The notes under the pieces: generated by a model
Told to the model about the DNA's origin: nothing
The model's database searches: none
What the model saw: only the letters and a program-made list of their open reading frames with translations
Part shown: in pieces, positions 41,576 to 54,661 of the stretch
Numbering within the stretch: position 1 is the first letter of the stretch
How the letters are laid out: the number at the start of each line of letters is the position of its first letter
Made by a program: the position numbers and the translations under genes
NCBI RefSeq assembly: GCF_900110115.1
Contig: NZ_FOCM01000003.1
Location: 248,001-312,000, forward strand
Reading direction: 5' to 3'
DNA: 64,000 nucleotides
From: Palleronia pelagia
Lineage (GTDB): Bacteria > Pseudomonadota > Alphaproteobacteria > Rhodobacterales > Rhodobacteraceae

Positions 41576-42451
41576 CTAGTCCGGCAGGATGTAATCCACG
41601 AATTCGGTCCGCTGCACGGGCAGGAAATTGTCGTCCGAGACCATGGTGGCGCGCAGACGATCCCGGTCATCGCGCCAGATGGCGATGCCTTCCAGGTTGT
41701 CGTGCTGGAGCAGGTCGCTTGTCATCAGGATCTCGTCACTTGCGATCCCTTCGTCGTCCAGTGTCAGGCGACGGACCCGGGAGCGAAAGCCGATCCACCG
41801 GAAATCACGTTCAAGGATATATAGCCGGCCGCGATCGTCGAAATCGGCGCCGACGGGGCGGAAACCGTCCCGGATGTCTGGAATTCCTGCGATGTCCCAC
41901 GCGTTGTTCCGCAGGCGAAGAAGTGGGCTTGGCCCGCCGCCCGGCATTACCTCCGGCAAAGTGTAGAGCGTGCCGCTTTCATCAATGGCGAGCGCTTCGA
42001 GCCCACCATTGGTGGGCAGTGCCATGAAGCCAGGATAGAACGGCAGGGCGGTCGCCGCACCACGCGGATCATCATATGCGTAAATGCGTGGCAGGTTTTC
42101 GAAGGTCACGACCATGCGTCCTTCGGGATCGAAGGCAAGCCCCTCTGCATCTGCAAGATCGCCCTCGATCCTGTTGCCGCGGTTGTCGCGTAGTAGACCG
42201 TCGGACCTGAGACCTACGCCCTCCACTGCGCCGGACTCCCCGCGCTTCAATTCAAGGACCATCAGCCGGGAGCGATCATTCAGCACATGCGCCGTCAGGC
42301 CGTCCTCAGACATATCGAGGCCCGAGAATCCGCCGAACAGATCTCCGTCGCCGTCCCACTCCCACGCACCGACGAATTCGGCCGCCCCGATCGGGGCGGC
42401 CGTGAGCGCCAGAAGGGTGGCGAGGATCAGCGCGCCAGGACGGCCTGGCAT
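41576..42451 (-). CDS. Exported esterase-like phytase-family protein
   Basis: A 291-residue protein with a signal peptide (MPGRPGALILATLLALTAAP...GAA) and a beta-propeller-like body: EFVGAWEWDGDGDLFGGFSG, DLADAEGLAFDPEGRMVVTF, TNGGLEALAIDESGTLYTLP and QHDNLEGIAIWRDDRDRLRA. These resemble the esterase-like-activity-of-phytase domain. The substrate is uncertain. Its start lies 25 bases inside the end of mepA, implying coupling. Confidence 0.8.
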   Translation of the reverse strand: MPGRPGALILATLLALTAAPIGAAEFVGAWEWDGDGDLFGGFSGLDMSEDGLTAHVLNDRSRLMVLELKRGESGAVEGVGLRSDGLLRDNRGNRIEGDLADAEGLAFDPEGRMVVTFENLPRIYAYDDPRGAATALPFYPGFMALPTNGGLEALAIDESGTLYTLPEVMPGGGPSPLLRLRNNAWDIAGIPDIRDGFRPVGADFDDRGRLYILERDFRWIGFRSRVRRLTLDDEGIASDEILMTSDLLQHDNLEGIAIWRDDRDRLRATMVSDDNFLPVQRTEFVDYILPD

Positions 42452-43341
42452 GCCTGGGGCAGATCGGCGACGCGCAATTCGCGGCGGGGCTGCGGGGCCG
42501 GTGCGTTCGGGTCGCGGGGCTTCGGCGGCGGCGGGTTCAGGATGTTGTTGACCCATTGCTGCGCATCGGCGCAGCCGTCACCGGCCGGGATCGGATCCTG
42601 GTTCTCGCATCCCTGCGATCCGGAGGGGCAGTTCAGCCGCACGTGCATGTGGTAGTGGTGGCCCCACCACGGGCGCACCTTGCGCAGCCAGCTGCGGTCG
42701 CCGGTGGCGTCCCTGCACATCTGCACCTTCGCGCCAGGGAAGATGAAGATACGCGCCACGCGGGGATCGCTGGCCGCGGCCTTCACCAGCTCGTGCTGGT
42801 AGGCGGACCAGCGATTGTTGGTATAGGCCCCTTTCGCCCGCTGCATCGACACGGCCGAGATATCTTCGCGCTGCTGGCGCGACAGGCCCAGCGCGGCGGG
42901 CATCAGCCAGATATCGGCGTCCAGCCCGCTCTGGTGGCTGGCGTGGCCGGACAGCATGGGGCCGCCGCGCGGCTGGCTCATGTCGCCCACGTAGAGCCCG
43001 TTCGAGCCCGGCAGCGACGCCGCCTTGCGCGACAGGTCCTGCACGAAGTCGATCGTGGTCGGGTGCGCCCAGTTCCGGTTCCGGCTGAGCCGCATGGACT
43101 GCCAGGTGGGCCCCGTGTCGGCCAGCTGCTGACCGCCCGCGAGGCAGCCGCGGGAATAGCCGCCATAGGCGGCGGCGGGCAGTGGGGCGGCCAGGTTCTT
43201 GGCGCCGAACATCGTCTTCGCCAGCGCGCTCTGGTTCACTTCGACCCCTGCCATGCTGGGCAGGGGAACGGTCCGCTCGGTGCCACCGCCGCACGACGCA
43301 AGCGCCAGTGCGGCCGCGGCCAGAAGAAGAGAAAGTCTCAT
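42427..43341 (-). CDS. mepA: Penicillin-insensitive murein endopeptidase MepA
   Basis: MepA cleaves D-alanyl-meso-DAP crosslinks in periplasmic murein. The 304-residue protein has a lipoprotein-type signal (MRLSLLLAAAALALASCGGG, lipobox LASC) and the LAS-metallopeptidase zinc ligands in SGHASHQSGLDADIWL near residue 130 and WWGHHYHMHVRL near residue 230. Apparent lipidation differs from E. coli MepA. The ATG overlaps the upstream MFS stop (ATGA). Confidence 0.92.
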   Translation of the reverse strand: MRLSLLLAAAALALASCGGGTERTVPLPSMAGVEVNQSALAKTMFGAKNLAAPLPAAAYGGYSRGCLAGGQQLADTGPTWQSMRLSRNRNWAHPTTIDFVQDLSRKAASLPGSNGLYVGDMSQPRGGPMLSGHASHQSGLDADIWLMPAALGLSRQQREDISAVSMQRAKGAYTNNRWSAYQHELVKAAASDPRVARIFIFPGAKVQMCRDATGDRSWLRKVRPWWGHHYHMHVRLNCPSGSQGCENQDPIPAGDGCADAQQWVNNILNPPPPKPRDPNAPAPQPRRELRVADLPQACQAVLAR

Positions 43342-47849: not shown

Positions 47850-47905
47850 GGCCTTCGGCCCTGGTGCTAGCATCAGTATCGAAGTGAAATCGCAAGGAGT
47901 TGCCG

Positions 47906-48691
47906 ATGCTGATCGTTCTGTCGCCCGCCAAACGCCTGGAGTGGGACGTGCCGCACGACGCGGTCCAGCGCCCCGAATTCCAGCGGGATGCCAACATCCT
48001 TGCGGGCCACGCGCGGCAACTGTCGTTGCAAGACCTGAAATCGCTCATGGATCTGTCGGACGACCTGGCGAAGCTGAACCGCGATCGGTTCCGCGCCATG
48101 GAGGATGCGCCCGATATCGACAATGCGCGGCCCGCGGTGCTGACCTTCGCCGGGGACACCTACCAGGGGCTCGAGGCCGAGACGCTGGACGACGCCGCGC
48201 TGGATTTCGCGGCCGGTCACCTGCGTATCCTTTCGGGGCTTTACGGTGTGCTGCGGCCCATGGATTCAATCCAAGCCTACCGGCTGGAAATGGGGTCGAA
48301 GCTGAAATCCCGGCGCGGAAAGGACCTCTACAATTTCTGGGGCGACACCATCGCGCAGGCGTTGAACGACCAGGCCGCGGACCTGGGCACCGACGTGCTG
48401 GTCAATTGCGCGAGCCAGGAATATTTCGGCGCAGTGGATCGCGATGCGCTCAAGCTGCGCGTCATTACGCCCAGGTTCCTGGAAGAGGGGCCCAAGGGTC
48501 CGCGCATCGTCAGCTTCCACGCCAAGCGGGCCCGCGGCGCCATGGCGCGGTTCATCTGCGAACACCGCCTGACCGATCCGGACGCGCTCAGCGATTTCGA
48601 CGCGGGCGGCTACGTCTATTCGGAAGAGCTGTCCGAGCCCGACGCGCCCGCCTTCTACCGGTCCGAGGCCGCGGCGGCCGACGCCGCCTGA
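47906..48691 (+). CDS. yaaA: YaaA peroxide-stress protein (DUF328)
   Basis: A 261-residue soluble protein starting MLIVLSPAKRLEWDVPHDAV and containing GLYGVLRPMDSIQAYRLEMG near residue 115 and a C-terminal HAKRARGAMARFICEHRLTD. YaaA limits iron-mediated damage under hydrogen peroxide in E. coli and binds DNA. AAGGAG at 47894-47899 supports ATG 47906. Monocistronic by spacing. Confidence 0.93.
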   Translation: MLIVLSPAKRLEWDVPHDAVQRPEFQRDANILAGHARQLSLQDLKSLMDLSDDLAKLNRDRFRAMEDAPDIDNARPAVLTFAGDTYQGLEAETLDDAALDFAAGHLRILSGLYGVLRPMDSIQAYRLEMGSKLKSRRGKDLYNFWGDTIAQALNDQAADLGTDVLVNCASQEYFGAVDRDALKLRVITPRFLEEGPKGPRIVSFHAKRARGAMARFICEHRLTDPDALSDFDAGGYVYSEELSEPDAPAFYRSEAAAADAA

Positions 48692-49071
48692 GTGTCCGCG
48701 CCCCAGACGTCCGGCCTGATCTTTGAAGACGCCTGCGTCCGATGTCGCGTGCTCGGAATCCCAGGCTCGCTATCCGGTCTGCTCCTCGGTCAGGCGCGAT
48801 TGGTTGCTGGCGCGGCAGGTACATCTCCGGCCGGCGCCTTCTGGCCCGTCTTCACCCAGTCGCGGTGGGTTTTCAGCATGCACCGGGACCGGGCCACCGG
48901 ATCAGGCTAATTCGTTACTGCCGTCCGATCCTACGGCTCCGGGCTCCTGAAACGGGGACGGGATACGAAAATCCGACCCGGAGTCGCCGGGCCGCGCGAT
49001 CTGCGCCGCGAGCGGGCCGATTTTGCGGATCCGTGCATCATAGGACCGGCCTAATCCGGCTGATCAGGCCG
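48692..49071. other. 380-bp stretch without a convincing gene
   Basis: No ORF here resembles a known protein. On the minus strand ATG 48879 to TGA 48790 encodes 29 residues starting MLKTHRDWVKTGQKAPAGDV; no clear ribosome site precedes it and it is only a weak candidate. Its leftward orientation would place it downstream of the histidine-kinase-like gene. No strong terminator hairpin was seen. Confidence 0.5.
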
Positions 49072-50760
49072 TCAGGGCGCCATGCCGTCTTCCGGCCCTC
49101 CGACGGGAGGCAGATCCAGTGTCGCGCGAATCACCGTGCCCCGATCCGAACTCTCATGCACGCCGAGGGTCCCGCCCATCATTTCGACCAGCGCGCGGGA
49201 TACCGAGAGCCTCAACTCCGCGCCCTGGTGGCCCCGTGCATCGCCGTCTTCGGCCCGGCGGGACGGTTCGAATGATGGCTCCCGCGCGCCGCGTGGGAAT
49301 CCGGGTCCGCCACTTGTGACCTCGATCCGGATACATCCCGTGGCGCCTTCGTCCGCTGGCACGCGAGAGATCGAGATAGCCACGTTCCCGCGTTTGGTCG
49401 ACCGGATCGCGTTTTCCAGCAGATTGACGAGAACCTGCCGGACCCGGTCCGCGTCGCCCGAAAGCCGCGGCGGCAGATCGGCATCCAGCGTCAGGCTGAT
49501 GTCGATGCCCCGCGCGGTGGCCGGGCCGCGCATGAGATCTACTGCTTCGCGCGTGCATTCGGCGAGATCGAAGGGCCCCGGGTTCAGGTCGAGACACCCC
49601 TCTTCGATCGCGGAGGTTTCCCGGATGTCGTCGATCAGGGTCAGCATGGACTCGGCCGAGTTCCGGATCTTCAGGACCATGTCGCGCTGCGCCAGCGCCA
49701 ACGGGTCGTCGTCCAGCAGTTCGCTCAGGCTCAAAATGGCGCTTATCGGTGCGCGAAGCTCATCGCTTATCCGGTCAATGGCGGCCCACTTTGCGCCGCT
49801 GGCCGCGTCGGCGGCGAACCGGGCCCGCTGCAGGGCTGCCTCCCGGTGTTTCAGCCGGGTGATATCGGTGCCCATCGCAGCCCGTCCGCCATCGGGGGTC
49901 GGCACCGCCGTCAGGCGCAGCCAGCGACCATCCTCGACGGCAACGTCTTCGGGCCGGTCGCCCGCCTCGCGAAACCGTCGCAGGCGGTGGTCATCCGCAG
50001 GGGCCGAATACTCGGCCGCGACATCCGGCGCATCGTCGGCCGCGACGCCCGACAACGCGCGGAAGGGTGCGTTGCAGGTGACCAATCGCTCGTCGCGATC
50101 AAAAAGCGCGAAGGGATCCGGGATGGCCTCGATCGCGCCGCGCAGGCGCAGGTCGTCGGTCTGGTCGACCGCGAGGTTGACGAAGCCGCCTCCGTGGATG
50201 GGCCGGTCCGACAGGGTGATGATCCGTCCCGACCACAGGTGGATCTGCATGTCCGGAACCGGCGAGCGATCATAGCGCCGGAACACCTGCGCGATCCAGT
50301 CGCGGCCCGGCATCCGCGGATCGACGATGCCCTCCTCGATCATCAGGCGGCATAGATCGCGCAGCGCTATACCGGGTTTGACCGCGTCCAGCCCGTCGAA
50401 GATCGACAGGTAGGCCGCGTTGGCGCAGACCAGCCGAAGGTCGGCGTCGAAGACGGCGAAACCGTCGCGCATGGTGTTCAGCACCTGCCACAGCCTGGTC
50501 TCGGCCCGCGCCCGGTCCGACACCGTGGCCTGCAACGATTGCTCGGTTTCCAGCGCCATAAGCTTGGCGCGATCGACGCGGGCCTGCATCTCGTCCAGCT
50601 GGGCGCGCTTTTCCAGGATGGCCTCGGTCAGCACGCGGCTGCGTCGCTCCATCCGCTCGGTGGCGGTGCGCATATCGCGCTGGCGTTGGCTCAGCTGATG
50701 TTCGGCGGCCAGACGGGCGCGGCGTTCCTGCGCGACAATACGGTCGAGTTGGGTGGGCAC
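49072..50760 (-). CDS. PAS-containing histidine kinase homologue lacking the phospho-accepting His
   Basis: A 562-residue cytoplasmic protein: N-terminal coiled coil (about 1-90), PAS domain from LWQVLNTMRDGFAVFDADLR (about 90-200), a second PAS (about 205-310), a HisKA-like helix pair (about 325-385) and a HATPase_c-like domain (about 425-555). In the H box the expected S-H-E-L-R-T-P reads SDELRAP, with Asp333 (codon GAT at 49762-49764) replacing His. The N box VLVNLLENAIRST is intact, but the D box reads TSGGPGFP, with Ser483 replacing the adenine-binding Asp. Autophosphorylation is unlikely. No response regulator is adjacent. Confidence 0.8.
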   Translation of the reverse strand: MPTQLDRIVAQERRARLAAEHQLSQRQRDMRTATERMERRSRVLTEAILEKRAQLDEMQARVDRAKLMALETEQSLQATVSDRARAETRLWQVLNTMRDGFAVFDADLRLVCANAAYLSIFDGLDAVKPGIALRDLCRLMIEEGIVDPRMPGRDWIAQVFRRYDRSPVPDMQIHLWSGRIITLSDRPIHGGGFVNLAVDQTDDLRLRGAIEAIPDPFALFDRDERLVTCNAPFRALSGVAADDAPDVAAEYSAPADDHRLRRFREAGDRPEDVAVEDGRWLRLTAVPTPDGGRAAMGTDITRLKHREAALQRARFAADAASGAKWAAIDRISDELRAPISAILSLSELLDDDPLALAQRDMVLKIRNSAESMLTLIDDIRETSAIEEGCLDLNPGPFDLAECTREAVDLMRGPATARGIDISLTLDADLPPRLSGDADRVRQVLVNLLENAIRSTKRGNVAISISRVPADEGATGCIRIEVTSGGPGFPRGAREPSFEPSRRAEDGDARGHQGAELRLSVSRALVEMMGGTLGVHESSDRGTVIRATLDLPPVGGPEDGMAP

Positions 50761-50825
50761 GGGCGGCAGTCCTCCTGCCGCCAGCCTTGCCTCACCAGGG
50801 TTAAGGCGCGGTTAAACGCGCCGGG

Positions 50826-52001
50826 TCAGAGCCGCTCGATGGCCAGCGCGATGCCCTGTCCGCCACCGATGCACATGGTGATCAGCGCGCGGCGCCCACC
50901 GGTCCGGTCAAGCTCGTACATCGCCTTCACGGTCAGGATCGCGCCGGTTGCGCCCACGGGGTGGCCCAGCGCGATGGCGCCGCCATTGGGGTTCACCGTG
51001 GCCGGATCGAGACCCAGCGCCCTGTTCACGGCGATGGCCTGGGCAGCGAACGCCTCGTTCGATTCGATCACGTCGAAATCGCCCCCCGACAGGCCCGTGC
51101 GCTCGAACAGCGATTCGCAGGCCGGGATGGGGCCGATCCCCATGACCTCGGGGCGCACGCCCGCGTGGGCATAGCCCAGGACGCGGAAACGGGGGGTCAT
51201 GCCGGCGGCCTCGGCCGCGTCGGCGCGGGCCATCACGATGGCCGCCGCACCGTCGTTGATACCGCTCGCATTGCCCGCGGTCACCGAGCCGTCCTTCTGG
51301 AACGCCGGGCGCAGGCCGGCGAGCTTCTCCATGGACGTGGCCTTCAGGTGCTCGTCCGTGTCGAAAGCCACGCTTTCGCGTTTCACCTGGACCTCGACCG
51401 GGACGATCTGGTCCTTGAACCGGCCCTCGTCCACGGCGCGGCGGGCGCGCGTCTGGCTTTCCAGCGCGAATTCGTCCTGCGCCGCGCGGCTGATGTCGCG
51501 TTCGGCCGCCACGTTCTCGGCCGTCACGCCCATGTGGCCGGTGCCGAACGGGCAGTTCAGCGCGCCCAGCATCATGTCCAGCGCGCGCACGTCGCCCATC
51601 TTCTGGCCGAACCGCGCGGGGGGCAGGATATAGGGCGACCGGCTCATGGACTCGGCACCGCCGGCCAGCGCCACGTCGCAATCGCCGAGCGCGAGGTTCT
51701 GGATCGCCGAGACGATGGCCTGCGCCCCCGAGCCGCACAGCCGGTTCACGTTCATGGCGGGCGTTGTGTCGGGGATGCCCGCCTCGATGGCGGCGGCGCG
51801 CGACAGGTACATGTCGCGCGGCTCGGTGTTGATGACATGGCCGAAGACCACGTGGCCCACCTGGCCGCCCTCGACGCCCGCGCGTTCCATCGCCGCACTG
51901 GCGACGGTGGCGCCCAGCGTGATGGGCGGCGTGCCGGCCAGCGTGCCGCCGAACGTGCCGATGGCGGTCCGCGCGCCGCCGAGGATTACGATATCGTCCA
52001 T
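50826..52001 (-). CDS. Acetyl-CoA acetyltransferase / beta-ketothiolase
   Basis: A 391-residue thiolase starting MDDIVILGGARTAIGTFGGT. Catalytic residues are all visible: the nucleophilic Cys in NRLCGSGAQAIVSAIQNLAL near residue 90, GGAIALGHPVGATGAI near 345 and the second Cys in MCIGGGQGIALA near the end. It may serve polyhydroxybutyrate synthesis or short-chain beta-oxidation; phaB is not adjacent, so the symbol is left blank. ATG 52001 was chosen as the conserved N-terminus. Confidence 0.93.
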   Translation of the reverse strand: MDDIVILGGARTAIGTFGGTLAGTPPITLGATVASAAMERAGVEGGQVGHVVFGHVINTEPRDMYLSRAAAIEAGIPDTTPAMNVNRLCGSGAQAIVSAIQNLALGDCDVALAGGAESMSRSPYILPPARFGQKMGDVRALDMMLGALNCPFGTGHMGVTAENVAAERDISRAAQDEFALESQTRARRAVDEGRFKDQIVPVEVQVKRESVAFDTDEHLKATSMEKLAGLRPAFQKDGSVTAGNASGINDGAAAIVMARADAAEAAGMTPRFRVLGYAHAGVRPEVMGIGPIPACESLFERTGLSGGDFDVIESNEAFAAQAIAVNRALGLDPATVNPNGGAIALGHPVGATGAILTVKAMYELDRTGGRRALITMCIGGGQGIALAIERL

Positions 52002-52102
52002 GGTAAACTCCTCCCGATCCGTTGGCCGCACCCTAAGGCCGCGCCAAAGCCGGGTCACCCGCCAAAACGCCGCCGCGACGCGTGACGTCCGGGCACGCGC
52101 CC

Positions 52103-54160: not shown

Positions 54161-54547
54161 TCAGCCGGCGAGCCCGCGCAGCCAGTTGGAATGCACCCAC
54201 CCCTTCTGGCTATCGCGCACCCGGCGTGCAGGTCCGTTGTTGCCACAGGAATCGGGCCAGCCATCGGCGATATTGCCATAGGTGACGCCGACCCACTGCC
54301 CGACGCCTTCGAAGATGTAGACCACGTCGCCGTTGTGCAGCTCGTCGATCTTGCGGTGGTTCGATCCTGGGCCCGTTCGCACGGCGAGGAAGCCGTCCCC
54401 GTTGGGATCCAATCCGACCACGGTGGCGCTGGAGCATGTGGCGGCTTGGCCATCCCCCGCCATCTCGGTGATCGGCACGTCGAGATCCGCACCGTGGGCG
54501 GTGGAGGCAAACAGGGCGGCAACGACGAGAATGCTCGGTCGGATCAT
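54161..54547 (-). CDS. Exported SH3-domain protein
   Basis: A 128-residue protein with a signal peptide (MIRPSILVVAALFASTAHGA) and one bacterial SH3-like domain: FLAVRTGPGSNHRKIDELHN, GDVVYIFEGVGQWVGVTYG and KGWVHSNWLRGL. Four cysteines may form disulfides. Such domains usually bind peptidoglycan peptides. The stop is three bases from the convergent transglycosylase stop, a suggestive but unproven link. Confidence 0.82.
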   Translation of the reverse strand: MIRPSILVVAALFASTAHGADLDVPITEMAGDGQAATCSSATVVGLDPNGDGFLAVRTGPGSNHRKIDELHNGDVVYIFEGVGQWVGVTYGNIADGWPDSCGNNGPARRVRDSQKGWVHSNWLRGLAG

Positions 54548-54661
54548 GCAAATGCCTTCCTTTCTGGAAATAGCCGAGAGGCGCGTTGCCGCCTCCGGCT
54601 GATCTGCAATGGGGAAGGATGTCTTCTGCCGCTCGATTCGGTCAAGCGTCGCCCGGTCGTC

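Follow-up and report, generated by a model that had tools for sequence, protein, structure and literature searches.

The window, as we call the whole stretch of 64,000 nucleotides of Palleronia pelagia DNA analysed here, carries between yaaA and a thiolase gene an open reading frame whose product combines a long N-terminal helix, two PAS domains and the HisKA (DHp) and HATPase_c (CA) domains of a histidine kinase (Table 1). The frame is open throughout, as had been stated in an earlier reading made from the letters alone (the sequence-only reading), and it follows a likely ribosome-binding site. PAS_7 (91 bits), a second PAS, HisKA (39.4 bits; cut-off 26.9) and HATPase_c (74 bits; cut-off 26.4) are the only Pfam domains seen in the protein, all of them over cut-off, and the DHp and CA domains are likewise recognisable in the orthologue from the sister species Palleronia salina DSM 26892 (G013; HisKA 36.9 and HATPase_c 48 bits). 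The "intact fold" assumed in that reading stands as far as the Pfam matches go, but the AlphaFold model (two sequences), which predicts an N-terminal helix at residues 4-100, is poor (mean pLDDT 50.4, pTM 0.24), and the kinase half is changed at 14 of the 35 DHp and CA positions that are invariant across 37 active relatives.

Table 1. Positions in the window of the kinase-like gene, its domains and altered codons, its neighbours and the block diverged from P. salina.
Feature	Position	Strand	Remark
Putative pseudo-histidine kinase gene	49072..50760	-	562 codons, GTG start
AGGAGGA, likely ribosome-binding site	50770..50776	-	9 nt before GTG
Residues 1-90, long N-terminal helix	50491..50760	-	3/3 family-invariant positions kept
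Residues 91-203, PAS1 (PAS_7)	50152..50490	-	9/9 family-invariant positions kept
Residues 204-320, PAS2	49801..50151	-	7/7 family-invariant positions kept
Residues 321-390, HisKA (DHp)	49591..49800	-	6/14 family-invariant positions kept
Residues 391-556, HATPase_c (CA)	49093..49590	-	15/21 family-invariant positions kept
Codon 333	49762..49764	-	Asp (GAT) replacing phospho-accepting His
Codon 337 (H+4)	49750..49752	-	Ala replacing Thr, HisKA phosphatase position
Codon 450, N-box Asn	49411..49413	-	retained; Asp in P. salina
Codon 483	49312..49314	-	Ser (AGT) replacing D-box Asp
Residues 513-518, G2 box	49207..49224	-	degenerate, GAELRL
Thiolase gene, upstream neighbour	50826..52058	-	same strand, 65 bp from kinase start
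yaaA gene, convergent neighbour	47900..48691	+	
Block ~65% identical to P. salina, in collinear surroundings of ~96%	48692..50225		right edge approximate

A search at E <= 1e-60 found relatives of the protein in 9 of the 14 genus genomes, and one at E <= 1e-75 in 72 of 394 evenly sampled family genomes. It is 35-41% identical to the proteins of loci L003-L013 over nearly the full length, the recQ-yaaA-kinase-thiolase neighbourhood recurs in five other genus members (L005, L006, L010, L012 and L013), and the Rhodobacterales PAS hybrid kinases encoded beside yaaA and thiolase (for example L005 and L006) have the same order of PAS_7, HisKA and HATPase_c. Judged by identity, shared neighbours and trees, the window gene is thus a derivative of the Rhodobacterales PAS hybrid histidine kinase family. 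Elsewhere in the genus the kinase is missing from G001, where yaaA and thiolase are 21 bp apart (L107), and the regions fetched from G006, G007 and G011 (L108, L109, L110) contain recQ, yaaA and a transglycosylase gene, with neither kinase nor thiolase. Our motif survey covered 39 homologues (32 of the 72 matches plus 7 from another search), and the His, the N-box Asn, the D-box Asp and the G2 glycines are all present in 37 of them, the window gene and its P. salina orthologue being the two exceptions; seven further, more distant homologues all have the His. A C-terminal receiver was called by a short motif string in 35 of these 37, with Pfam confirmation in three proteins (PAS_7, HisKA, HATPase_c, Response_reg), and the other two of the 37 (L032 and L041) end at contig edges. 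The receiver region of another homologue (L028, G026) seems to be out of frame in the C-terminal part, by frameshift or sequencing error. The nearest relative in the N-terminal tree (L004, G004) has all kinase motifs and the receiver; in the tree of the kinase halves its branch is long (2.49).

The window protein departs from these hybrid kinases, which retain the His, the D box, the G2 box and the receiver, in residues needed for kinase function. Both substitutions claimed in the sequence-only reading, those of the phospho-accepting His333 and of the D-box Asp483, are confirmed at the codon level, and so is the good preservation of the N box and the PAS domains; the D-box glycines 485 and 487 are retained as well. 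Three further defects had escaped that reading: the G2 box, GTGLGL in relatives, has lost two glycines, the Thr at H+4, reported as the HisKA phosphatase position (PMC3510030), has become Ala, and the receiver typical of the family is absent, no significant trace of a decayed one having been found 3' of the stop codon (E 0.11 for the best tblastn match and 0.44 for the best HMM match). Since the His is gone and both the D box and the G2 box of the ATP site are broken, the window protein very probably no longer phosphorylates itself and, given the change of the H+4 Thr to Ala, it is probably not a phosphatase.

Among the HisKA matches of the same genome, 16 of 17 have the His, the window gene being the sole exception, and the residue is missing from 0.9% of HisKA domains (722 of 76,471) in the survey reported in PMC12632262; given both figures, the loss is more than chance would bring. 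No active copy of the same family was found elsewhere in the genome at E <= 1e-60 (26 of 26 candidates scored), nor at E <= 1e-30 (23 of 26 scored), the best other match to the C-terminal half being 26% identical (E 2e-18). It also holds that no partner regulator is adjacent: Response_reg has 32 matches genome-wide, 31 of them above cut-off, none of the 32 lies inside the 64 kb window, and the closest ones on the contig precede it by ~25 kb and follow it by ~69 kb. A literature search on Palleronia histidine kinases gave a sole match, which concerned gut microbes of an animal.

Degeneration is shared with the sister species. The P. salina kinase has Ser333, Arg483 and Asp450 (the N-box Asn is gone), Ala at H+4 and no receiver. 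Because this orthologue is also degenerate, the state of the window gene is neither a sequencing error at 49762-49764 nor a single recent mutation; a normal His does occur in the wider family (37 of 39) but not in the sister species. Alignment also shows that Asp333 and Ser483 as such are not conserved, which disposes of Asp333 as a conserved phospho-mimic, and we regard the two residues themselves as incidental. With reference to the 35 invariant DHp and CA positions, the P. salina protein has lost 15 and shares 11 losses with the window protein, including His333, Asp483, the G2 glycine 517 and Thr337, an overlap (hypergeometric P = 0.0007) whose test assumes that every invariant position is equally easy to lose and hence makes a common origin of the losses look better supported than it is. 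At 6 of the 11 positions the replacement is the same in both (N330R, T337A, G341A, F454S, Q502R, F544I), and all invariant positions of PAS1 (9/9), PAS2 (7/7) and the N-terminal helix (3/3) are kept in both species. These common losses and replacements suggest that the ancestor of both alleles was already degenerate, with or without its His, as residue 333 now differs between the species (Asp and Ser) and the His could have been lost twice. Some other chemistry, such as a different phospho-acceptor or nucleotide hydrolysis, might be read into Asn450 and the D-box glycines of the window protein, but it is highly unlikely in view of the missing D-box Asp and G2 glycines, the loss of the N-box Asn in P. 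salina and the different replacement residues of the two species.

The comparison with P. salina further revealed that the gene is a mosaic. The two genomes are collinear at ~96% DNA identity around a block of ~65% that spans the domains PAS2, DHp and CA together with noncoding DNA adjoining yaaA, the latter stretch having no significant similarity between the two, whereas residues 91-178, outside the block, are identical. By pairwise codon maximum likelihood, dS is 0.17 for residues 1-178, 0.19-0.32 for the neighbours recQ, yaaA and thiolase, and 1.84 for residues 179-562, a value close to saturation and therefore imprecise; simple counting shows the same synonymous jump, from 0.12 to 0.85. 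Over 400 kb of the contig, 98% of it aligned to P. salina, this block alone aligns at ~65% for more than 1 kb, other low-identity blocks (0.64-0.79) being shorter or milder and a few stretches unaligned. One of the low-identity blocks, at 41701-42501 (0.64-0.76), lies inside an ORF at 41576-42556 on the minus strand with a Phytase-like domain (PF13449) and is possibly another imported allele, and a short stretch at 54370-54580 is unaligned amid ~96% collinear DNA. In trees built by a quick method the two C-terminal halves group as sisters with a support of 100; they share a long stem, and their tips measure 0.97 and 1.53. The corresponding N-terminal halves are separated by 0.08. There are thus two alleles of the PAS2-DHp-CA half, which differ deeply from each other and are both degenerate. 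Since synonymous divergence jumps with sharp edges, a diverged allele was probably imported by homologous recombination into one of the two sister species. The two genomes share many long stretches of identical sequence, in keeping with frequent recombination; one of 262 bp in the PAS1 region, initially a candidate for recent exchange, was dropped because 393 kb of alignment contain 116 runs of at least 250 bp. No donor genome for the block was found among 394 family genomes, genome contigs and viral contigs. The scan of genome contigs for further alleles gave seven loci, namely the P. salina orthologue and six kinases at 28-31%, and that of viral contigs gave none. This missing donor and the raised omega within the block would be compatible with fast local evolution in place, an account that we hold to be quite improbable considering the roughly tenfold rise of dS (0.17 to 1.84) at sharp edges and the equally unrelated noncoding stretch beside the gene. 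It is tempting to go beyond a single import and to speculate that two old kinase-dead PAS2-DHp-CA alleles, under diversifying or balancing selection, are passed around within Palleronia through recombination and serve as interchangeable modules of partner specificity attached to a PAS1 sensor that does not vary, but we consider this extension rather doubtful.

Nonetheless, the half that has lost catalysis shows the marks of constraint. Pairwise codon maximum likelihood between the window gene and P. salina gave the dN/dS estimate that the sequence-only reading had called for: omega is 0.19 over residues 179-562 (2dlnL 104 against omega = 1), with 0.16 for DHp (2dlnL 28) and 0.20 for CA (2dlnL 40). 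Purifying selection has therefore acted on the kinase half ever since the two alleles diverged, though part of that period may predate the loss of the His; recQ, yaaA and thiolase have omega values of 0.02-0.04, lower by a factor of 5 to 10, which points to weaker constraint on the kinase half than on these neighbours. Across the diverged block all gaps relative to P. salina are in-frame and there is no stop. Neutral simulation of both lineages predicted 8 stops at dS 0.85, where the frame stayed clean in a single run of 1000, and 13 at dS 1.84, where it did so in none of 1000; at the ordinary species divergence (dS 0.17) 131 of 1000 neutral runs kept a clean frame, which would be unsurprising by chance. 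The low dN/dS together with the clean frame argues that the gene is maintained, and the loss itself has been maintained in both sister species, although these are two genomes only. A decaying pseudogene without function could be proposed from the loss of catalytic residues and receiver and from the absence of the gene elsewhere in the genus, yet it is very improbable: the frame is open behind a good ribosome-binding site, omega is well under 1 in every part tested, zero stops stand against the 8 to 13 neutrally expected and the N-terminal part is conserved like its neighbours. The sequence-only preference for a pseudokinase over a decaying gene is hence supported, also by the degenerate P. salina orthologue.

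A more serious competitor confines the function to the N-terminal helix and PAS1 and regards the kinase half as vestigial and on its way to loss; it deserves attention because DivL is reported to have shrunk to PAS only in most Rhodobacterales (PMC9430884). In the average of 666 active pairs the conservation of PAS1 falls 0.21 below that of the kinase core (single pairs vary from -0.51 to +0.19), whereas between the window protein and five active relatives (L003, L004, L005, L006 and L010) PAS1 is the better conserved of the two, by ~+0.13 to +0.20. We based the argument on these active relatives because the difference of +0.48 between the window protein and P. salina is confounded by the mosaic. 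Judging from the comparisons with active relatives, constraint has shifted toward PAS1 relative to the active family members. The identity of residues 91-178 in both species and the retention of 9/9 invariant positions in PAS1 versus 21/35 in DHp and CA would fit a vestigial kinase half too, but the PAS1 identity partly reflects its position outside the diverged block, and the low omega of DHp and CA, each with its own support against neutrality, and a block with in-frame gaps only and no stop speak against this reading. We take a role for helix and PAS1 alone to be unlikely, although the least unlikely of the alternatives.

The reading that we favour, with moderate confidence, is that of a binding-only PAS pseudokinase, descended from a Rhodobacterales PAS hybrid kinase, which acts on another kinase or on a regulator. 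Since the protein lacks the acceptor, the phosphatase residue and the receiver and its ATP site is broken, it is very unlikely to take part in phosphotransfer. The sequences show the residue losses, the parallel loss in the sister species, the mosaic and the purifying selection after the split of the alleles; the absence of activity, the binding role, the partner, the signal and the species that received the block are inferred. A cytoplasmic cue would be perceived by the N-terminal helix and PAS1, which would also promote dimerisation, and the pseudo DHp/CA module would be kept as a docking surface. Docking might then change the activity of another histidine kinase in a mixed dimer, as in RetS and GacS, or alternatively the surface might recognise a response regulator in the way that DivL binds DivK. 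The scaffold role put forward in the sequence-only reading would be plausible.

Known systems offer partial parallels. Against solved structures, the kinase core matches RetS of Pseudomonas best (E 1e-32), followed by an unnamed histidine kinase (7n0e, E 7e-32) and, more weakly, DivL (E 7e-14). RetS retains its His and has a sensor architecture of its own with tandem receivers, unlike the window protein, in which Pfam shows only PAS, HisKA and HATPase_c. It has been described as acting on another kinase, GacS. DivL of Caulobacter is, like the window protein, a HisKA protein without the His; it is reported to lack kinase and phosphatase activity, to bind DivK~P through its DHp and, with Tyr at the His position, to bind an ATP analogue weakly (PMC4211667). 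The window protein has Asp and P. salina Ser where DivL has Tyr, and DivL matches the kinase core only, whereas the window gene descends from a hybrid kinase and its relatives are canonical hybrid kinases. As for ChrS of Corynebacterium glutamicum, its pseudokinase version is said to be a product of laboratory evolution, whereas the Palleronia form is natural and occurs in two species. That kinase-dead ChrS version has a reported effect (PMC9491836).

Taken as a whole, the window gene looks like a maintained pseudo-histidine kinase, of an already known kind, rather than a dying gene. What is new here is the block diverged from P. salina, an unusual allele difference in the dead half. A HisKA domain lacking the His is an uncommon find (0.9% in the survey of PMC12632262), and few proteins of this sort have been characterised. 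Because there are active relatives, a second and very different degenerate version in a sister species and a mapped swap boundary, one can read directly from this case what is kept by selection after the loss of catalysis. Should the dead kinase half indeed be a binding module that can be swapped, the Palleronia alleles would amount to an experiment made by nature on how partners are told apart in the absence of phosphotransfer.
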